Shown here: positions 1 to 7,950 of the stretch, one piece after another
Layout of the letters: each line of letters opens with the position of its first letter
Numbering within the stretch: position 1 is the first letter of the stretch
DNA from: Conexibacter sp.
GTDB taxonomy: Bacteria; Actinomycetota; Thermoleophilia; Solirubrobacterales; Solirubrobacteraceae
Direction: 5' to 3'
Assembly: GCA_025964295.1 (NCBI GenBank)
Contig: JAOPZD010000204.1
Span: 1 to 7,950, forward strand
DNA length: 7,950 nt
Program-made: the position numbers and the translations under genes
Notes under the pieces: generated by a model
The model's input: only the letters and a program-made list of their open reading frames with translations
Told to the model about the DNA's origin: nothing
Databases searched by the model: none

Positions 1-1208
1 ATCGACCTTCGCGAGGTTGAGCTGGCCAGTGACAGCCTCAGCGACCAGCGCTTCCCGATAACTCATCAGCACGTTGCCGAGGTCGCGATATTCAGTGACG
101 AGCTGATCGGGAACTCGTCGCTCATCAGCGATCCGTGCAACTAGGTGACGTTGCTCATCGAGGGCAATGTGAGGAAGGGTCAGGTCCTTGACCAGTCCGT
201 GATTCAACTTGGGCATTGAGCTCGAGGAGCCAGCGGCGGAGGCCTTGATCTCTTCGCGGACGCGCTGAGATCCAAGTGCAAGTGCGACGTACTCCGCATC
301 CCAGGAGCCCGTGTTGATCTTCAGCCGGTAGAGCAAGTCGGACAGCATGAGTTTGGGACCAACCTGACGCACCACCGCGCAGCTACCGACGAGGTCGCGG
401 GTATTGGCTCGCGACATGAGGACGTCACCTACACGCACCTCAAGTTCGGGTCGCGGACTCAAGTCCGCGGACAGCGCTTTGTGTTCATCGCGGAATCTTC
501 CGCCATTCACGCACCCGAGCTTGAGGACACCCCATTCGCCAGAGCCGACATTCCGGTCGTCGCACACTGGGCTCCAGCCTTGCTCAATCCCGAGCAACGC
601 GAAACGAAGGCGGCAGCGAGATTCGGCCAGCGTCATGGCATCGAACATCGCGGCAACTGTGCGGGCTACCGCATCCCGTGCTTCTTCGAGTTCGTGCGTT
701 AGTTCATCAATCCGCGCGCACTCACGGTCGAGGAAGTCCGCAATGCGTACCTGCTCCTTGAGCGGTGGTACGGGTTCCGGAGGTTCAAGATTCCGTCGAC
801 GGCCAGCCCGGGCTGGGCAGCAGCGACCGAGTACTGCCCGAGGTCCATTGCCGCGAACAAATGCGCAAGCCAACGAGGATCCGTCCCGCTCGCGGGAGCC
901 GCTACGACAGCGTGCTCTGACGCCCAGAATCTTCCTCGGACCAAATGGACGTTGCCGCACAACGCACCTTGCCGGCCGATGAGCACAAAGGTCCCGTCAT
1001 GCGTCCAATCGCCGCAACGTCCTCGGAGACCATTCCCCCCGTAAACCGGGAACTCGCCAGAGTCGGTGAGCTCCTCGGCCGTGATTCCTTCACCGCTGCG
1101 CATTGAGCAGCACCGCTTGATGGGAGCAACCTCCCAGCCGGGTGGGAGCTGCGCTGGCCAGGGCAGATGCGTGGACCTGCGAGCTGCGAAAAGCGTATCC
1201 CACGTCAC
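1..1208 (-). pseudogene. hsdS: Type I restriction-modification specificity subunit HsdS, frameshifted and cut by window edge
   Basis: HsdS supplies sequence recognition for the type I methyltransferase and restriction complex. The GTG start at 1208 overlaps the hsdM stop (GTGA), and GAAGAGG lies 7 bases upstream. In the first frame residues 1-144 form target-recognition domain 1, from LPPGWEVAPIKR to QPGLAVDGILNLR. The frame then runs into unrelated sequence and stops at 699. From about 777 the next frame restores the expected protein: PVPPLKEQVRIADFL and a helical central spacer, then a second recognition domain (GEWGVLKLG, VRVGDVLMSRANTRDLVGS), then LPHIALDEQRHLVARI and a closing helical region ending VTGQLNLAKVD at base 1. 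Both halves are intact HsdS sequence, so one base appears to be lost around 777-779. Restored length would be slightly over 400 residues, normal for the family. The lesion could be a real inactivation, a phase switch or a sequencing error. The second half has visibly less GC-rich third positions than hsdM. Confidence 0.85.
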
Positions 1209-3208
1209 ACGAGCACCTCTTCAAGCAGCTGGCGGATCCGCGCCTCGCGTTGCCGCAGTTCGGTCTTGATCTCTTCGCTGGGTCGCGGCGGCGTGTAGCT
1301 GTAGAAGACTCGGGTGAACGGGATCTCGTAGCCAACCTTGCCAACTGGGTCAGCGACCCAGGCGTCGGGTACATGCGGGTGCACCTCGCGGGCAAGGTAG
1401 TCGTCGACGTCCTCGGTGAGCGGGACGTTTTCGGTGTCGCGTAGCCCCGTGTCGGCCACGACCTTCCCCTTGGCATCTAGGGTCGTCTCGGCATCCGGAT
1501 CACGGACCATGCAGCGGGCCGCGAGCGCCTTGAGCAGCGGCGCGCCCGGCTTAGCGATGCCAGCCGCAACGAGCGTCCCCTTGAGCAACAACCGACACGC
1601 ATGCTCTGACTCGAAGGTTTGCGCGGGAAGTACCTCAAGCCCGGTGATGGCAGTCGCACGCGCCGCGTCGTCAAGCTTGGCAAGTGTTTTATCTTCGGCC
1701 AGTCCAGACCAAGTGCCCGCACCGATCTCCCAACGCGCGCGGAGCGGTCGGTCGACGGTAATGGTGCGGTAGCCGAAGTGCTCAACTGGGACGAGCTTGA
1801 CGAGATCGCCTTCTTCAAGGGCGCCGTGCAGGCGTGTGATCGAGGAAATGTGGTCGTCGTTGAGCATGCGGCGCTTCTCGCCGAGGCTCTTACGCATCTT
1901 CGTCCACTGCCCGCGAGCGTCGATGAGCTGCACGACGCCTTGTCGTTCGGGACTCTTACGGTTGGACAGCAGCCACACGTAGGAGGCGATGCCGGTGTTG
2001 TAGAAGAGCTGCTCGGGGAGTGCCACGACTGCTTCGAGCAGGTCGTTCTCGAGCACGTAGCGGCGGATCTCCGATTCGCCAGAACTGGCCGCGCCGGTGA
2101 AGAGCGGCGAGCCGTTGTGGACGATGGCGACGCGGCCGCCGCCTTTCTCGGGCTCGCGCATCTTGGAGATCAGGTGAAGCAGGAAGAGCAGCTGACCGTC
2201 TGACTTGCGCGGCAGTCCAGGACCAAAGCGGCCGTCAAAGCCGTGAGTCTCGTGTTCCTCGCGGACGGTCTCCTCAACCTTGGACCAGTCCACGCCGAAG
2301 GGCGGGTTGGCGATGGCGTAGTGGAAGCGTTCCCCGCGGTGACCGTCCTCCGACAGTGAGTTGCCGTGAACGATATGGGTGGCGTTCTGGCCCTTGATGA
2401 GCATGTCGGCCAGGCAGATGGCGTAGGACTCGGGGTTGAGCTCCTGGCCGTAGAGGAGGACCTCAGCGCTCGGGTTGTATCGGTGGATCTGCTCCTCCGT
2501 CTCCGACAGCATCCCGCCGGTTCCGCAGGCGCAGTCGAAGACCTGCCGGCGGACGCCGGGCTGACGGAGAACGTCCTCGTCGCCGTCGAGCAGCAGGTTG
2601 ACCATCAGCCGCACGACCTCTCGCGGGGTGTAGTGCTCGCCGGCCGTCTCGTTGGAGGCCTCGGAGAAGCGCCGGATGAGCTCCTCGAAGATCGCGCCCA
2701 TGTCCGCGTTCGAGACCCGGTCCGGGTGCAGGTCGACCTCACAGATGCGCCCGATGACCTTGTAGAGCAGGTTGGCGTTCTTCAGCCGGTCGATGTGCGT
2801 GTCGAACTCGAACTTGTCGATGGCCTGCCTGGTGAGGGCTGAGTAGCCGTCGATGTAGGCACGGAGGAGATCGGCGATGTTGCCCGGGTCGTCCAGTAGC
2901 TGATGGAAGCGCAGGCGGTGGCGGTTGAAGAAGTCTTGGCCGGCGGCCGCACGAAGCGCCAGCTCGAGGTTCTCCACGCCGGCGGCCTCCAGCTTCGCCG
3001 CCTGCTCGATCACCGCGTCGCGGGTCGGCTCCATCATCTGGTCGAGGCGGCGCATGACGACCAGCGGCAAGATGACCTTGCCGTAATCAGCCTGCTTGTA
3101 GTCGCCGCGGAGAAGCTCGGCTACGCCCCAGATGAGGTTCGCGTGATTTCGGACGTCGGCGCTCATTGCGCCGTCCGTTCGCCGGTCGGCGTCGTCTTGA
3201 TCTGCCAT
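1205..3208 (-). CDS. hsdM: Type I restriction-modification DNA methyltransferase subunit HsdM (N6-adenine)
   Basis: HsdM is the S-adenosylmethionine-dependent N6-adenine methyltransferase subunit of a type I system; it works with HsdS to protect host sites. The 667-residue product has the N-terminal helical HsdM domain (NHANLIWGVAELLRGDYKQ, residues about 21-39). The SAM-binding motif I is DCACGTGG (225-232), and the catalytic motif IV is NPPF (301-304) within IANPPFGVDW. GEHYTPREVVRLMV (190-203) is also typical of HsdM. The C-terminal 300 residues are longer than in the classical EcoKI type but common in this subfamily. I chose the ATG at 3208 because GGAAGG sits 6 bases upstream; an in-frame GTG at 3259 would add 17 residues without such a site. 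The stop codon overlaps the hsdS start by four bases, so the two are probably translationally coupled. No frameshift or missing motif was seen. Confidence 0.96.
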   Translation of the reverse strand: MADQDDADRRTDGAMSADVRNHANLIWGVAELLRGDYKQADYGKVILPLVVMRRLDQMMEPTRDAVIEQAAKLEAAGVENLELALRAAAGQDFFNRHRLRFHQLLDDPGNIADLLRAYIDGYSALTRQAIDKFEFDTHIDRLKNANLLYKVIGRICEVDLHPDRVSNADMGAIFEELIRRFSEASNETAGEHYTPREVVRLMVNLLLDGDEDVLRQPGVRRQVFDCACGTGGMLSETEEQIHRYNPSAEVLLYGQELNPESYAICLADMLIKGQNATHIVHGNSLSEDGHRGERFHYAIANPPFGVDWSKVEETVREEHETHGFDGRFGPGLPRKSDGQLLFLLHLISKMREPEKGGGRVAIVHNGSPLFTGAASSGESEIRRYVLENDLLEAVVALPEQLFYNTGIASYVWLLSNRKSPERQGVVQLIDARGQWTKMRKSLGEKRRMLNDDHISSITRLHGALEEGDLVKLVPVEHFGYRTITVDRPLRARWEIGAGTWSGLAEDKTLAKLDDAARATAITGLEVLPAQTFESEHACRLLLKGTLVAAGIAKPGAPLLKALAARCMVRDPDAETTLDAKGKVVADTGLRDTENVPLTEDVDDYLAREVHPHVPDAWVADPVGKVGYEIPFTRVFYSYTPPRPSEEIKTELRQREARIRQLLEEVLV

Positions 3209-3214
3209 CTCATG

Positions 3215-3220
3215 CCTTCC
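3215..3220 (-). promoter_or_regulatory. Ribosome binding site of hsdM
   Basis: On the minus strand GGAAGG lies 6 bases before the ATG at 3208. This good Shine-Dalgarno match decides the hsdM start in favour of 3208 over the in-frame GTG at 3259. Confidence 0.7.
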
Positions 3221-3223
3221 ACG

Positions 3224-3243
3224 GTGCGTCACACGTGACGCAC
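3224..3243. promoter_or_regulatory. 20-bp palindrome just upstream of hsdM, candidate operator
   Basis: GTGCGTCAC and its exact reverse complement GTGACGCAC flank a 2-base spacer. The element sits 16-35 bases ahead of the hsdM start, between its ribosome binding site and the upstream XRE regulator gene. The two-fold symmetry with 9-bp arms fits a dimeric repressor site. The obvious candidate ligand is the XRE protein encoded directly upstream, but nothing in the sequence proves it. A hairpin in the hsdM leader is the alternative reading. Confidence 0.55.
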
Positions 3244-3288
3244 TCGACGCTGTTCTCACGTCCGATCCGCCGAGGCGGAGGTCGCATC

Positions 3289-3360: not shown

Positions 3361-3672
3361 TCAGTGCTTCTTGCGGGCGAGCTTCATGTCACGAACCTTT
3401 GCGACGCGCGACGCGCCTGGCGGTTTGGCGGCATCGGCCCGGAACGACGTCCACTCCCAGTCCCCGTCGACGAGATCATCGAGGGTCACGCCAAGGACGA
3501 CTGCGCAGTTGCGCATCACCCGAAGATCCACACGGTAGGCGGGCTCACCAGGCTGGCGTCGCTTTTCGATCTTCCCGATGGTGCGCCGCGAGGTCCCAAC
3601 CAGCACGGCCAGCTGCTCAGGCGAGAAACCTTTTTGCTCGCGTAGAAGCGCGAGCATGCTGGGGTGGCGCAA
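3361..3672 (-). CDS. XRE/Cro-family helix-turn-helix transcriptional regulator
   Basis: A small DNA-binding protein of 98 or 103 residues. Near the N-terminus it has the pattern LLREQKGFSPEQLAVLVGTS followed by RRTIGKIEKRR, which is the XRE-type helix-turn-helix with its recognition helix. A second conserved portion, VMRNCAVVLGVTLDDLVDGDW, completes the five-helix domain, and the C-terminus is basic (VAKVRDMKLARKKH). The frame is closed by a TAG at 3693-3691. The start is either TTG at 3672 or ATG at 3657; neither has a clear ribosome binding site, so the message may be nearly leaderless. The gene lies 152 bases upstream of hsdM on the same strand, and a 40-bp palindrome sits directly in front of it. 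By position and size it resembles a controller (C) protein of restriction-modification systems, which bind their own promoter; that role here is inference. Confidence 0.85.
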   Translation of the reverse strand: MRHPSMLALLREQKGFSPEQLAVLVGTSRRTIGKIEKRRQPGEPAYRVDLRVMRNCAVVLGVTLDDLVDGDWEWTSFRADAAKPPGASRVAKVRDMKLARKKH

Positions 3673-3699: not shown

Positions 3700-3739
3700 T
3701 CGGACGCTTCGTTCCGAGTTCTCGGAACGAAGCGTCCGA
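3700..3739. promoter_or_regulatory. 40-bp near-perfect palindrome between divergent transcription units, candidate operator
   Basis: The 19-base arm tcggacgcttcgttccgag (3700-3718) is followed by two bases (tt) and then by its exact reverse complement (3721-3739). It lies 28-43 bases upstream of the two possible XRE starts on one side and 38 bases upstream of gene A on the other. This is the only non-coding stretch between the two divergent units, so a bound regulator could act on both. The arms are longer than a single XRE dimer site needs, so paired dimers are possible. Alternatives are a cruciform, a recombination site or a palindromic mobile repeat. I saw no second copy in the window. Confidence 0.7.
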
Positions 3740-3769
3740 GCCCTTCCACCGAAGCTCGTCCCGGATCTA

Positions 3770-3789
3770 GTCAGGACATGACTCCTGAC
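3770..3789 (+). promoter_or_regulatory. Inverted repeat enclosing the start codon of gene A
   Basis: GTCAGGA (3770-3776) and TCCTGAC (3783-3789) are exact reverse complements with a 6-base spacer that contains the ATG at 3778-3780. In RNA this could form a short hairpin holding the start codon in its loop, and in DNA it could be a small operator. The AGGA lies only one base before the ATG, too close to work as a normal ribosome binding site. Confidence 0.4.
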
Positions 3790-4428
3790 CTTTCCCCCGC
3801 CGCCGCCGAGTTCAACGAACTCCTGCCGCGGCTCACCGCCGACCCGGACGGCCACCCCGACATCCTGGAGATCGCGGCCGCCGTCGCTACCACCTCCAGG
3901 GCGCTCTTCCACCCCGACGACGACAGCACCCCGGACTACTTCCGGGCCAGCATCTTCGGAGAGCCGGTCCTTCGCCCTTCGCACGCGGTAGCGCGGGCCT
4001 CAAGCCAGCTCCCGATGGAGATTCACCAGCCCGTGCTGTTCCGCGTGGCACTCGCGGAGTACGCGCCCATTCCCGCAGCCGTCGGCAGGGAAGCGTGGAA
4101 AGCAGCTTTCGTCGTGCCGAGCCTGCATGCCCAGGACGGGCCGTGGCGGCCACTGGGCTTCGGCCGGCACCTCGCAGATTTCGGTGTCGCCCGCCTCCTG
4201 GCCGTCACCCTCGGCGGCTTGGTCTGGTCCGACGACGTCGGCGAGTCGGTGTCGGTTGTTGTCGATTTGCCGCACGTGCAGGGCGAACGTGTGTTCGCTT
4301 TTGTTCCGTCCGGATGGTGTCGGAAGCTTCCTTCCGACAACGACCTCCACTCCATGTCCCGCATGAACACGAACATCCCGCAGCCCCCGACCACGGACGA
4401 CGATGGCGCCGTCGGCGGTGGGTTCTGA
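3778..4428 (+). CDS. Hypothetical protein, first gene of a DDE-transposase-linked operon (gene A)
   Basis: I do not recognise this 216-residue protein. Codon third positions are almost all G or C up to about 4240, which supports real coding. The product is soluble-looking, with no signal peptide or clear membrane segment. It has an acidic N-terminal third, a central WKAAFVVPSLHAQDGPWRPLGFGRH stretch split by positions 107-131, a hydrophobic ARLLAVTLGGLVW segment (about 137-149) and a low-complexity tail rich in T, D and G. The ATG at 3778 is preferred because the open frame before it crosses the 40-bp palindrome and the regulator gene. The stop overlaps the gene B start as TGATG, which points to coupled translation. 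The last 180 bases also carry a LexA-type box and a hairpin, and bases 4240-4330 have less GC-rich third positions. Gene A is therefore probably overprinted by a control region for gene B. Confidence 0.7.
   Translation: MTPDLSPAAAEFNELLPRLTADPDGHPDILEIAAAVATTSRALFHPDDDSTPDYFRASIFGEPVLRPSHAVARASSQLPMEIHQPVLFRVALAEYAPIPAAVGREAWKAAFVVPSLHAQDGPWRPLGFGRHLADFGVARLLAVTLGGLVWSDDVGESVSVVVDLPHVQGERVFAFVPSGWCRKLPSDNDLHSMSRMNTNIPQPPTTDDDGAVGGGF
4267..4295 (+). promoter_or_regulatory. Weak candidate internal promoter for genes B to D
   Basis: TTGCCG (4267-4272, four of six consensus bases) is separated by 17 bases from TGTGTT (4290-4295, three of six). It lies inside the end of gene A and overlaps the LexA-type box at 4284-4297, which is where LexA usually acts. 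The match is weak on its own; the overlap with the box is what makes it worth noting. Confidence 0.25.
4284..4297. promoter_or_regulatory. Candidate LexA (SOS) box inside gene A, upstream of gene B
   Basis: The 14-mer CGAACGTGTGTTCG fits the CGAAC-RNRY-GTTCG consensus for LexA in Bacillus and actinobacteria at every position. The symmetry extends one base further on each side (G at 4283, C at 4298). It lies 130 bases before the gene B start, in a segment whose third codon positions are less GC-rich than the rest of gene A. LexA binding here would place the transposase-like gene and its downstream partners under DNA-damage control. Chance occurrence of such a palindrome in coding DNA is possible. 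Confidence 0.5.
4318..4339 (+). other. Nine-bp stem-loop before gene B
   Basis: TGTCGGAAG (4318-4326) pairs perfectly with CTTCCGACA (4331-4339) around the four-base loop CTTC. It sits 20 bases after the LexA-type box and 89 bases before the gene B start, within gene A. No run of T follows, so it is not a standard terminator. It could be a leader structure, an attenuator or a second protein-binding site. Confidence 0.5.
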
Positions 4429-6194
4429 TGCGCAGCCGCAGGCCGAAGCCCTTCGAAGCGAAGCTCCGCAAAGACCCGCTCGCCTACGACCGCCAGGTCC
4501 AGGTGTGGGCCGAGCGACTGCTCGGCGGGGTCGCCGCCGATCTCGACGACCCAGCCCACCGCGAGGCGCTGGAGTTCGTTCTTGCCGAGGTCTCGCGCCG
4601 CCGGCACGCCTCCGGGAAGACGGCAGCGCTGACCTTGCAGCAGCGGATCCAGGACTCCTTCCTCAAGCATCTTGAGCGCTACAGCCCCGTCTGCGCCGCC
4701 CCTGAGCTCGATGACGAGATGGAGGATCTACGCCTCGTGCTCGAGATGCCGCGCCTGCAGCAGCTGTGGTGCGAGTGGCCGGACCCGCCCCGCGGCCGGT
4801 CGGGCCCGGCCAGCAACTTCGGCTCCGCCAAGGCGACGCTCATCGTCTTCGGCTGGACGGAGGCCGGCGACCTTGAGGAGGCGTACCACCGCCTCTTCAA
4901 CCGCCCGCAGCTGCGGATCCTCTTCGAGTCTCTGGAGCGGATGCGCCACGGCCGTGCGGTTCCCCATCTGCCCGGCATGGGCGTCACGGCCGCGGAGCTT
5001 GAGATGAAGAGCTACCCGACCATCGCCCGGCAGCTGCCGCTTGTCGCGAACACGCTGCTGCCGCTCGTCGCCCAGTGCCGCATCGACCTGCTGCAGGAAC
5101 TTGCCGGCTACTTCCCCAACGCGCCCATCGGCGAGGTCCTGTCCATCGACGGCACCGACCACCCGTTGTGGATCCCGCAGCGCGGCTACGACAAGGACGA
5201 TCCCCGAGAGCAGGCGCTGCGCGACCGCGTCCCTAACGCTCGCTTCCGTGCCTGGGGCGAGGACAGCGCGGGCCCTGGCGGCAAGAAGGAGCTGAAGTCC
5301 GGCGACAAGGTCACCGTCAACGCGTTCAAGAAGAAGTGGCGTGGCGACTACGAGCTGCCGCTGTGCGAGCTCGTCACGGGCCTGCCGACCGTCCGCCACG
5401 CGCAGACCATCAACGAGCACTTCGCCCTCGTGCCGTTGATGAGCGACCTCTTCCGCCTCTACCCCTCCATCCCCCTGCAGATCGTTGCCGGCGACTCGGG
5501 TTTTGACTACGCCGCCTCCTACCGGCTGCTCACCGCCGGCTACGGGGTCCAGGGCTGCTTTGCGCTGCACGACGAGCGCGGCGACCAGCAGTTCCCGGAG
5601 GGCACCTCGAAGAACGGCAGCGTCTGGGGCACCGACTCTAAGGGTCGCCTGTACTGCGGCAAGTGCCGCAAGCCGATGGAGCTCCGCGAGCAGAACCTCT
5701 ACCCGCGCCGCTACAAGGTCGACGGCAAGGTGGTGCCTGACCCGGTAACCGGGGAGCTACTGAACCTGTTCCCCGGCAAGGAGAACGAACCCGACAAGCA
5801 CCGCGTGCGGGCCGAATGCCCTGAGCACGGTCGCCCCAGCGTCTCCATGTCAGCCAACTGGAAGCTGCTCGGCGGCCTGCCGCACTACCCGGAGGGCCGC
5901 CCTGACCTGTACGGCAAGCGCCTGGCGATCATGGCCCGCCGCTCGATGTCGGAGTGCTACAACGCCCGGCTGAAGACGGCTCGGCGACTGTGCACGAGCG
6001 GCCCGGATCGCACCCGCCACAACGACGAGCGCACTCTCAACGCGCTGCTGGAGGTCGCCGCGCTCAGCTTCGTGGCCCAGCAGGTCTACTCCGAGCGCTG
6101 CCTTCGCGGAATCCCCGGCCGCTTCGGGCTGCCCGCAACCGGCAGGACCCCGCCGTCCTCATCAGCCGTCGGTGCCCCGGAGGTCGCAGCGTGA
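4428..6194 (+). CDS. DDE transposase-like protein with an internal zinc finger (gene B)
   Basis: A 588-residue protein whose layout matches an RNase H-fold DDE transposase. The first aspartate is in VLSIDGTDHPLWIP (D241), the second in QIVAGDSGFDYAASY (D356), and the glutamate in RRSMSECYNARLK (E509), the usual E-x2-N-x2-LK pattern. A helical, charged N-terminal 230 residues may hold DNA-binding and dimer contacts. Between D356 and E509 lies C410-x2-C413 with C464-x2-H467, a probable zinc finger inserted in the catalytic core. The ATG at 4428 overlaps the gene A stop (TGATG), with GGTGGG five bases upstream. The stop overlaps the gene C start. The frame is undamaged and all three acidic residues are present, so it may be active, yet I found no terminal inverted repeats around it. 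The family assignment rests on motifs read by eye; I cannot name an IS family. Confidence 0.75.
   Translation: MRSRRPKPFEAKLRKDPLAYDRQVQVWAERLLGGVAADLDDPAHREALEFVLAEVSRRRHASGKTAALTLQQRIQDSFLKHLERYSPVCAAPELDDEMEDLRLVLEMPRLQQLWCEWPDPPRGRSGPASNFGSAKATLIVFGWTEAGDLEEAYHRLFNRPQLRILFESLERMRHGRAVPHLPGMGVTAAELEMKSYPTIARQLPLVANTLLPLVAQCRIDLLQELAGYFPNAPIGEVLSIDGTDHPLWIPQRGYDKDDPREQALRDRVPNARFRAWGEDSAGPGGKKELKSGDKVTVNAFKKKWRGDYELPLCELVTGLPTVRHAQTINEHFALVPLMSDLFRLYPSIPLQIVAGDSGFDYAASYRLLTAGYGVQGCFALHDERGDQQFPEGTSKNGSVWGTDSKGRLYCGKCRKPMELREQNLYPRRYKVDGKVVPDPVTGELLNLFPGKENEPDKHRVRAECPEHGRPSVSMSANWKLLGGLPHYPEGRPDLYGKRLAIMARRSMSECYNARLKTARRLCTSGPDRTRHNDERTLNALLEVAALSFVAQQVYSERCLRGIPGRFGLPATGRTPPSSSAVGAPEVAA
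6179..6183 (+). promoter_or_regulatory. Ribosome binding site of gene C, inside gene B
   Basis: A full GGAGG lies seven bases before the GTG at 6191. It is the best Shine-Dalgarno match in the operon and fixes the gene C start at the GTGA overlap rather than at earlier in-frame codons inside gene B. Confidence 0.75.
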
Positions 6195-6955
6195 GCGGCC
6201 AGCCAACGGTCCAGGAGTTCGTCGAGATCATCGACGAACTCGTCGACGGCTACGCCGACCACCTCCTCGGGTGTCCCATGCTCAGCCGGGAGCTGCCCTG
6301 CGACTGCGGCTACCGCGCCCTGCTCGGCCGTGCCGAACACGGGCGACAGGCCGCCGGAGCACCGCCGTGCCAGCACCCCGACACCACGTGGCATACCGGA
6401 GCAAGCGCGGCGGCTCGCCCTGGTGCTGAGTTCTGTCGCCGCTGCGGAGCCAGCCGACCGGACGCCGGCGACCCGTGGCGGCAGACAGGAAGCCCAGCGG
6501 GCCGGCCCATGGTCGTCTGGGTCTCCGACGAGGCGTGGGAGTCGGGACTCACGGAGGCGCGCGGCGTCTTCGTCTGGGGCGAGTTGCGGCGCCTGGTGCG
6601 CAGCGCACGCGAAGAGGTACGCAACGGCAACCACGAGCGAGCCGCCCGGCTGTTGACGTCGGCACGCTGCACGAGCCTGATCGCGCCAGACGCTCTCATG
6701 CCCGATACCCCGCACCCACCAGATGAGCTCGACGACGACGCTGCCGAACCTGGGTACGAGCGAGCCGCCGCCGATGCCCGGTGCCGCAGAGACGTCCAGG
6801 CGCACGAACCGTGCCGCCATCGCCGCTTCCAGTTCGTGCAGACCCCAGGGGTCGTGGCGGCCTGGGTCGGGTGGGAGCTCTGCCACGACTGCGGCGCGAC
6901 CCGCAGCGTCGACGGCGACCACACCGGAGCATGGCGACCGTCGGAGACCGTGTGA
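6191..6955 (+). CDS. Protein with duplicated CxH...CxxC zinc modules (gene C)
   Basis: This 254-residue protein is not one I can name. It carries two similar cysteine/histidine modules. Module 1 is C60-x-H62, twenty residues, then C82-x2-C85 in FCRRCGASR. Module 2 is C208-x-H210, twenty-one residues, then C231-x2-C234 in LCHDCGATR. Each would bind one zinc ion through three cysteines and a histidine, as in zinc ribbons or treble clefs that grip nucleic acid or protein. A further cluster, C28, C37 and C39, lies near the N-terminus. Between the modules is a segment with WVSDEAWESGLTEARGVFVW and a helix rich in arginine and glutamate (about 129-155), then an acidic linker. GTG at 6191 is well supported by GGAGG and by the four-base overlap with gene B. 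The stop in turn overlaps gene D. Context suggests an accessory DNA- or protein-binding partner of the transposase-like protein. Confidence 0.75.
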   Translation: MSGQPTVQEFVEIIDELVDGYADHLLGCPMLSRELPCDCGYRALLGRAEHGRQAAGAPPCQHPDTTWHTGASAAARPGAEFCRRCGASRPDAGDPWRQTGSPAGRPMVVWVSDEAWESGLTEARGVFVWGELRRLVRSAREEVRNGNHERAARLLTSARCTSLIAPDALMPDTPHPPDELDDDAAEPGYERAAADARCRRDVQAHEPCRHRRFQFVQTPGVVAAWVGWELCHDCGATRSVDGDHTGAWRPSETV

Positions 6956-7152
6956 CTTCCCGTTCTGATGATCCGCCCCACCCGGGGCGCCTCCCGATCA
7001 AAGCCGGGGATCGCGGTCGCCCCGTCAGCGACGACGCGGTGGGGGTCGGCACCGTTCTTAGTTGCTTCCATCCCACACACGTCGACGGTCGACTGGAACA
7101 ATGGCTCAAGCGAGCTGCGCCTCGCCGCAACCTGGTAACGACGACGGCCTGA
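6952..7152 (+). CDS. Small protein, last gene of the operon (gene D)
   Basis: A 66-residue frame starting with GTG in a GTGA overlap with the gene C stop, the same junction type as between B and C. GGAG lies five bases upstream. The product, MTSRSDDPPHPGRLPIKAG at the start and DGRLEQWLKRAAPRRN near the end, is polar and basic at the C-terminus. It contains one cysteine (LSCFHPTH) and has no membrane segment. I recognise no family. Support comes from the overlap pattern, the ribosome binding site and GC-rich third positions. A longer frame through this stretch begins upstream, inside gene C, but those earlier starts would read gene C out of frame. A chance frame remains possible because it is short. 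Confidence 0.5.
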   Translation: MTSRSDDPPHPGRLPIKAGDRGRPVSDDAVGVGTVLSCFHPTHVDGRLEQWLKRAAPRRNLVTTTA

Positions 7153-7245: not shown

Positions 7246-7270
7246 GCTGATCAGGCGCAATCCTGACAGC
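7246..7270. terminator. Weak stem-loop between convergent genes
   Basis: GCTG-A-TCAGG (7246-7255) can pair with CCTGA-CAGC (7262-7270) around a six-base loop, giving nine pairs with one bulged A. It lies between the end of gene D and the end of the opposing small gene, overlapping the stop of the latter. No T-tract follows on either strand, so termination is only a positional guess. Confidence 0.25.
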
Positions 7271-7538
7271 CCGGAAGGGTTGCCAGCTGGTCCCGGCTCG
7301 CTAGCTGATGGTTGCCGAGCCCGGCGTGATGACAGTCGGACGTGTGCAGCATCCGAGCGCTCTTCATCGCGACGTAAGTCTGCTTGGAAGTCGCAGGGAG
7401 GTTCGGCGCTCGGCGCCCGGGTCGGGCAGCCGGAGCCTTATCCGCGTTCAAGGTGCCCTTCGGCCCGAGCGCTCCAAGACGTAACTCCTGCTCCTTGAGA
7501 CGCTTCTTCTCGGCGGAACTCACGTAGCGCTGGCTCAC
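7251..7538 (-). CDS. Small hypothetical protein with a C-terminal CHH...CxxC motif
   Basis: A 95-residue protein read convergently to the operon. It begins MSQRYVSSAEKKRLKEQELRL, a charged helix, continues through a proline- and arginine-rich linker (APAARPGRRAPNLP), and ends with MLHTSDCHHAGLGNH and LPGCQDCA. The final part has C69 with two following histidines, then C91-x2-C94. This resembles small zinc-binding units in which an H/C pair is closed by a C-terminal CxxC. The start is GTG at 7538, with only a weak AGAAG upstream. Third codon positions are mostly G or C. I cannot assign a family, and 98 bases separate its stop from gene D. It may be a cargo gene of the island or an orphan. Confidence 0.5.
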   Translation of the reverse strand: MSQRYVSSAEKKRLKEQELRLGALGPKGTLNADKAPAARPGRRAPNLPATSKQTYVAMKSARMLHTSDCHHAGLGNHQLASRDQLATLPGCQDCA

Positions 7539-7716
7539 AGGGCACTTCTACCAGAGGCCAGCTGACACCTCGCCGGCACGGCTTCGACCGTCTACGGGCT
7601 GCGGCCCGAACGATCGCTGCAGCCTATGTCTGCACTAATCCGCGGCCGCGTGGACCCGGTCAGCCGGCAAGTTCAGCTGCCGTCTTCGGACCAAGAATTT
7701 CTGGGCCTATGGGGGC

Positions 7717-7814
7717 GAACTCGAGAACAGTGAAGCCCGCTGTGGGGCGGGCTCCAAAAGGCACTCATATGCAGGGAGTTCTTGGCACACGAACTTGAGA
7801 ACGAACGCGAGAAC
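7717..7814. repeat. Three copies of the 12-mer GAACNNGAGAAC
   Basis: Copies are GAACTCGAGAAC at 7717-7728, GAACTTGAGAAC at 7791-7802 and GAACGCGAGAAC at 7803-7814. The last two are in direct tandem. Each copy is preceded by C, and ten of twelve positions are fixed. They stand immediately downstream of the pilC stop, the last one 9 bases away. They may be binding sites for a regulator or recombinase; their place at the junction between the accessory genes and pilC makes a recombination role thinkable. Confidence 0.6.
7734..7753 (-). terminator. Possible terminator downstream of pilC
   Basis: AGCCCGC (7734-7740) pairs with GCGGGCT (7747-7753) around a six-base loop. On the minus strand the stem is followed by TCACTGTTC, a weakly T-rich tail. 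It is 70 bases past the pilC stop and in the right direction. The stem is short and the tail poor, so confidence is low. Confidence 0.35.
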
Positions 7815-7823
7815 AACCCTGCC

Positions 7824-7950
7824 CTACTTGATCGAGTCGTACACCTTGAACAGCGGCAGGTACATCGAGATGACGATGAAGCCGACCATGCCCCCGACGA
7901 CGACGATCATCACCGGCTCCAGGATCGAGGTCAGCGACTTGACGGCCGCC
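7824..7950 (-). CDS. pilC: Type IV pilus inner-membrane platform protein PilC / type II secretion GspF family, 3' end only
   Basis: Only the last 41 residues are in the window; the gene enters from the right edge. The product reads AAVKSLTSILEPVMIVVVGG, then MVGFIVISMYLPLFKVYDSIK, and stops at TAG (7826-7824). This is the characteristic C-terminus of PilC/GspF proteins: the LEP motif, then the last membrane helix, then the MYLP segment. PilC sits in the cytoplasmic membrane, where it couples the assembly and retraction ATPases to pilin polymerisation. It is a core pilus gene and marks the edge of the accessory region. No pilin gene follows in the available sequence. Confidence 0.95.
   Translation of the reverse strand, partial: AAVKSLTSILEPVMIVVVGGMVGFIVISMYLPLFKVYDSIK

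Follow-up and report, generated by a model that had tools for sequence, protein, structure and literature searches.

Here we report that gene B, a 588-amino-acid (aa) frame at positions 4428–6194 (forward strand) of a 7,950-nucleotide (nt) stretch of Conexibacter sp. DNA (the window: positions 1–7,950 of contig JAOPZD010000204.1, assembly GCA_025964295.1), encodes what its sequence indicates to be a very divergent DDE transposase-like enzyme of the DDE_Tnp_1 superfamily, opposite a type I restriction-modification (RM) locus. We propose, with a probability of about 45%, that B is a transposase-derived enzyme kept at one place in a type I RM island, where it would serve restriction or defence as a DNA-processing enzyme. 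For this reading speak a D-D-E triad conserved to remote relatives, purifying selection and one shared site next to pilC in two species; the neighbours downstream of B are swapped and no inverted repeat above chance lies in the flanks tested; and cousin DDE genes repeatedly have XRE genes of one subfamily or type I methyltransferase genes as neighbours, one remote relative lying amid PifA-like, OLD-like and type IIG genes. If B is indeed a domesticated DDE enzyme working with restriction, it would be a case of bacterial transposase capture for DNA defence or processing.

Gene B and its place beside pilC

The initial annotation, made from the letters of the window, had called B transposase-like from the acidic residues D241, D356 and E509. 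These are numbered correctly; D241 and D356 are kept in all seven aligned proteins and E509 in the six that reach that far, with the whole triad invariant in three close relatives and in the remote relatives L085 and L086 (L and G numbers are our labels for loci and genomes), and the remote L090 has both aspartates and ends before the glutamate. Between D356 and E509 lie C410, present in all seven proteins, C413 and C464, present in the four close ones only, and H467, present also in L085. The cut-off of PF01609 (DDE_Tnp_1) is passed by the remote relatives L149, L152 and L159 and reached by L090, and L085 and L086 fall below it. Because remote relatives pass this model and the triad is conserved, the transposase-like label appears sound.

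A protein search with B, in which 7,995 candidates out of 5.8 billion were scored, returned four sequences. Besides B these were three relatives with identities of 78, 74 and 64%; the 78% relative comes from Paraconexibacter algicola, carries the UniRef name transposase and provides a named organism for testing B. Whole-genome searches found this P. algicola copy (G573), a full-length relative at 29% identity (G586) and short remote matches (G351, G717 and G760); in overlapping sets, matches to B occurred in 1 of 396 genomes at phylum, 3 of 299 at class and 4 of 232 at order level. No relative was found in IMG/VR, in plasmid or phage records searched by tblastn or in a scan of GTDB 220 contigs; tblastn of two remote relatives against plasmids gave no useful match, nor did a search of the PDB by sequence. 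Against NCBIfam, PADLOC and Pfam, B alone gave no meaningful family match; its one PHROG match (E = 0.009) is to a family of unknown function.

The P. algicola locus carries, in order, hsdM (81% identical), an XRE gene, a 137-aa gene A′, B (78%), an unrelated gene with a sub-threshold DUF5677 match and pilC, and DNA similarity to the window is confined to 1204–3185, 4278–6197, 7704–7949 and parts of hsdS. The initial annotation had read genes A, B, C and D as one four-gene operon. Their single strand and their junctions (TGATG with a 1-nt overlap between A and B, GTGA between B and C and again between C and D) are exact, but the set is not conserved as a unit: C and D are absent from the P. 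algicola locus, where the unrelated gene takes their place, and A is barely conserved (A and A′ align with a score of 104 against 53 for the best of 500 shuffles; dN 0.58, dS 0.71). In G586, a divergent MT-A70 gene lies upstream of B and a 101-aa gene without Pfam family overlaps it downstream by 4 nt, and neither an A-like nor a C-like gene was seen beside B. Since C and D are missing from P. algicola and A is barely kept there, hsdM, the XRE gene and B are the stable parts. The adjacency check suggested with the initial annotation came out against A, C and D as lasting neighbours of B.

This place is defined by the 3′ end of a pilC-like gene (7824–7950, reverse strand), the chromosomal flank of the island; the order on this side is the same in P. 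algicola and the window. Neither B nor HsdM appears at any of 15 other pilC loci from this family; of these, L124 and L126 extend less than 1 kb past pilC, and L123, L128 and L130 about 5 kb. Because the order beside pilC is shared and is missing at the 15 other loci, we conclude that a single island at a single site is common to the window and P. algicola. The P. algicola island spans roughly 40 to 59 kb of contig C2 and comprises a VapBC-like pair (by eye), two HNH_repeat proteins, an OLD-like protein, HsdR, a RAMA-domain protein (PADLOC candidate PDC-S14), HsdS, HsdM, XRE, A′ and B.

Between the window and P. algicola, dN/dS is 0.29 for B and 0.18 for HsdM, indicating purifying selection on B, and B gave one match each in G573 and G586, rather than the multiple copies of a classical insertion sequence. 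The absence of flanking terminal inverted repeats, asserted in the initial annotation, holds in the flanks tested (about 0.6–0.8 kb on each side of B, with chance assessed for ungapped pairs): in the window 31 of 60 shuffles do as well as the best ungapped pair, of 11 nt, and in P. algicola 54 of 60 do as well as the best, of 10 nt. Longer imperfect pairs of 25–31 nt (74–81%) also occur in the window, and the chance comparison covers the ungapped ones only. Single matches per genome, a shared place, purifying selection and the lack of recognisable ends are the reasons why we think that B may serve the island rather than its own spread. The suggestion of a domesticated DNA-processing module thus stays live for B, with its conserved triad and its restriction and defence neighbours, and is not supported for the four-gene set. 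What would have spoken against such a module, according to the initial annotation, was B alone between inverted repeats and target duplications, with A, C and D not conserved beside it; the non-conservation is what we see, and no such repeats were found.

The same observations bear on whether B might be an ordinary old insertion-sequence remnant that landed by chance beside a restriction system, with functionally unlinked neighbours. Mobile elements are enriched in defence islands (PMC5379612), and the PF01609 superfamily fits such a remnant. We nevertheless consider this origin improbable, given that B is intact and under purifying selection, that it overlaps neighbouring genes on both sides in the window and that the XRE subfamily recurs beside cousin DDE genes.

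Cousin DDE genes in Thermoleophilia

Searching with two remote relatives of B (A4 query) revealed a cousin DDE family with matches at 1e-10 in 21 of 299 Thermoleophilia genomes. By count there are 23 such loci, 10 with a single long match and 13 split or partial, some owing to contig ends. We inspected 18 loci, namely 16 of the 23 together with G586 and G351; outside this set stand G519, G233, G558, G592, G492, G509:C163 and G525. Another profile (A2) also caught ordinary-looking transposases (G442:C66 and G594, by eye), which were dropped together with short matches in G115 and G534, the cousin set being the one that the A4 query defines.

A partner-gene profile, named HNH_repeat-type because of the Pfam matches of the L159 and L086 proteins and similarity to them, matched 13 of the 18 DDE loci, nine of these being seeds chosen by eye for adjacency and four non-seeds (L190, L197, L202 and L086), and none of 12 control loci (164 kb, drawn from the pilC set). 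It matched no open reading frame (ORF) in the window and one gene in the P. algicola island, 13.5 kb from B. With Pfam itself, PF18780 was found beside a DDE gene in G544 only, plus G351 below the cut-off. An XRE profile built from five proteins (window, P. algicola, L192, L198 and L200) also matched L197 (1e-28), L195 (1e-27), L199 (1e-14) and, weakly, L085 (6e-4); the subfamily is present in 6 of the 18 DDE loci, three of them profile seeds, and in none of the 12 controls. G544, G514, G478:C2 and G573 have HsdM-type genes in the vicinity of the DDE gene. Within 5 kb, a distance chosen after the loci had been seen, a match to the type I methyltransferase model PF02384 accompanies 4 of 27 DDE loci from 25 genomes, where 0.11 would be expected (Poisson P = 6e-6), and 3 of 26 when G573 is left out (P = 2e-4). 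Whatever B does, several genomes bring XRE, HNH_repeat-type and DDE genes together, in some cases beside type I RM genes.

Some of these loci merit separate description. G461 and G478 share, at about 99% identity, a block of about 6 kb (L201 3008–9016 and L202 3104–8649) that holds ArsR-like and metal-ATPase-like genes (by eye), a cousin DDE gene and an HNH_repeat-type gene; one copy lacks 463 bases of the DDE region, and the two do not count as independent loci. In G351, a dense defence island (L086 5391–18001) contains HNH_repeat genes, a B-like DDE gene and PifA-like, OLD/GajA-like and type IIG genes. A DUF1156-type DNA methylase lookalike (L190 520–3389; by eye) lies about 3 kb from a cousin DDE gene in G576.

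Under the main alternative, which is less than an even bet, an atypical transposon of low copy number carries or targets restriction and defence genes and has B as its transposase, with short or imperfect ends that escape recognition, an XRE repressor, and HNH_repeat-type or A-type proteins helping to choose the target. Membership of the DDE_Tnp_1 superfamily fits such an element, as do the patchy distribution of the cousins and their many split copies, the HNH_repeat-type gene at so many DDE loci (most of them seeds picked by eye) and at no control, and the nearly identical G461/G478 block with its internal gap. It is opposed by the lack of an inverted repeat above chance bracketing B in the window or in P. 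algicola, by the single match per genome and by the occupation of one place in two species whose B proteins are 78% identical. Moreover, the B stop codon is coupled to one gene in the window and to another in G586, so that an end directly behind B would have no space. Were B nonetheless a transposase of this kind, the transposon would be regulated, low in copy number and devoid of ordinary ends.

Several observations weigh against the reading that we prefer, of B as an enzyme serving its RM island. B itself falls below the PF01609 gathering cut-off, with no PF01609 match at E ≤ 1, and an AlphaFold prediction from 4 sequences (mean pLDDT 38.6) did not confirm an RNase H-like fold. B is distantly related to the cousins (hhalign probability 73%, E = 3e-5, 114 columns), and each of PF18780 and PF02384 is missing from the surroundings of most of the 27 DDE loci. 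The cousins are patchy and decayed, as transposons also are, which argues against service to an island. Measured against DDE_Tnp_1 transposases, B shares the D-D-E residues and has remote relatives that pass or reach the Pfam cut-off, but it differs in lacking a PF01609 match and inverted repeats above chance, in its co-translated neighbours and in its single match per genome where found.

A broader interpretation, which we regard as unlikely but worth stating, is that Thermoleophilia harbour a family of gene sets combining an XRE regulator with a DDE_Tnp_1-derived enzyme and, in the cousins, an HNH_repeat-type DNA-binding protein, which would settle beside type I RM systems and act there either as a targeted integration module or as a second DNA effector, derived from a transposase; the window would then be a divergent branch in which A and C replace the HNH_repeat partner. 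Such gene sets were not met in a limited literature search. Within open-licence PMC, and thus as weak evidence of novelty, we found no paper on DDE transposases with defence islands or domestication or with anti-phage defence systems, nor on the homing endonuclease associated repeat with a transposase; the combination of domesticated transposase and antiphage turned up only reverse-transcriptase work.

The XRE regulator and the palindrome

The RM locus that the initial annotation saw facing the operon is there, but the description was incomplete, omitting an XRE-family gene (3361–3657, reverse strand) between hsdM and A and a 40-bp palindrome. The XRE gene (HTH_31, 36.7 bits against a cut-off of 27; PADLOC Control_protein, E = 9e-4) is co-directional with hsdM and divergent from A, and the divergent gap of 120 bp contains the perfect palindrome at 3700–3739 (arms of 19, centre of 2), a putative operator. 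It is the longest perfect palindrome in the window, where 200 mononucleotide shuffles reach an arm of 12 at most. The corresponding XRE/A′ gap of P. algicola contains a perfect palindrome of unrelated sequence (arms of 14, centre of 4). In its 58-kb surroundings this palindrome is not exceptional (two others have arms of 13, and 1 of 12 shuffles reaches 14); its weight comes from its position in the gap, where 0 of 200 gap shuffles match it. The XRE proteins of the two species have themselves diverged (score 83, best of 500 shuffles 50). The flank of the XRE gene thus keeps a perfect palindrome while the sequence of the palindrome changes, a pattern that we infer to reflect a coevolving regulator–operator pair. 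The P. algicola palindrome is not a dispersed repeat, occurring at a single place in the genome with up to 3 mismatches. Nor is a palindrome a general feature of the DDE family: none comparable was seen among 16 intergenic stretches from 14 other loci, the best of which by shuffling (L200, 10 bp per arm) is reached by 2 of 200 shuffles.

As a small helix-turn-helix (HTH) protein encoded beside RM genes, the XRE protein resembles the controllers of RM systems, of which C.Csp231I is reportedly one. The likeness extends to the palindrome; in contrast to C.Csp231I-type controllers, the window combines a type I system with a divergent DDE operon opposite and a single long perfect palindrome as the putative site. 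RptR is described in PMC12255303 as a repressor of type I RM islands that binds repeated 6-bp TAGCTA palindromes. In both cases a small regulator gene adjoins hsdM and is preceded by palindromic DNA, but the window has one 40-bp palindrome, whose sequence differs between two species.

In the model that we favour, the XRE protein would bind the palindrome and repress both divergent promoters, and relief of repression would allow the hsd operon and A-B-C to be expressed together. B could then cut or join DNA at its DDE site, as its conserved residues suggest, possibly aimed by its own Cys/His stretch and by co-translated partners, and would act as a DNA-processing enzyme of the island rather than power an active insertion sequence. 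Its co-translated partners A and C might be interchangeable, aiming or restraining B.

Genes A, C and D and the remainder of the window

Gene A (3778–4428, forward strand; 216 aa) belongs to no family that we recognised. It is not an HNH_repeat-type protein: the partner-gene profile matches no ORF of the window at 1e-4, and Pfam finds nothing in A. Codon scores are +25 for A, +10 for C, −14 for D and +215 for B, although B was itself in the training set. None of A to D matched a PADLOC model at E ≤ 1, which places none of them in a known anti-phage defence family.

Gene C (6191–6955, forward strand; 254 aa) is weakly supported as a gene and lineage-specific. The duplicated zinc modules ascribed to it are partly borne out, in that a repeated C-x-H ... 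C-x-x-C-G module is read directly from the sequence, but Pfam zinc-ribbon models remain below the cut-off (14.9 bits against 25). No counterpart was found in P. algicola or, by tblastn, in phages or plasmids, and inspection left no real relative among 232 genomes of the order. An apparent homologue in G526 was discarded: the match falls at and just upstream of the beginning of a gene that resembles an ABC permease (PstC-like by eye), and composition seems to account for it. The gene status of D (6952–7152, forward strand; 66 aa) was not borne out: its codon score makes it probably a non-gene, and it has neither a family nor a P. algicola counterpart. In P. algicola, the frame downstream of B is likewise open from a GTGA at the B stop, although the start favoured by the gene caller is an ATG some 87 nt downstream.

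Tn7-like and Tn5053-like transposons combine an integrase-core transposase with TnsC/TniB and TniQ partners. Like these, the A–D set joins a DDE-type protein to co-expressed accessory proteins, one of which carries Cys/His modules, but A, C and D are non-conserved partners of B, and no integrase-core, TnsC/TniB or TniQ family occurs among the Pfam and NCBIfam matches of A–D at E ≤ 1.

On the reverse strand, hsdM (1205–3259; N6_Mtase 206 bits, HsdM_N 84 bits, MTase_I 864 bits) encodes the type I methyltransferase, its true start probably lying inside this ORF. The specificity gene hsdS (1–1208, reverse strand) is split over two overlapping frames, 699–1208 (Methylase_S, 28.6 bits against a cut-off of 22) and 1–960 (14.4 bits, below the cut-off), in contrast to a single 423-aa frame in P. 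algicola; the split may stem from a sequencing error, or the gene may truly be inactive or phase-varied. ARAGORN found no tRNA gene in the window or in the P. algicola locus (L084). Between D and pilC, a 95-aa ORF (7251–7538, reverse strand) has no match in L084 and a sub-threshold Pfam match to DUF6233 only. The pilC-side motif TTCTCGAGTTCGCCCCC was rejected as a repeat bounding the island, being present in a single copy in G573 when up to 2 mismatches are allowed. The stretch adjoining pilC (7704–7823) is conserved between the window and P. algicola and contains GAACTYGAGAAC-type repeats (window 7717–7814, L084 13196–13293), one followed by two in tandem with the same spacing in both species, a possible attachment or regulatory site.

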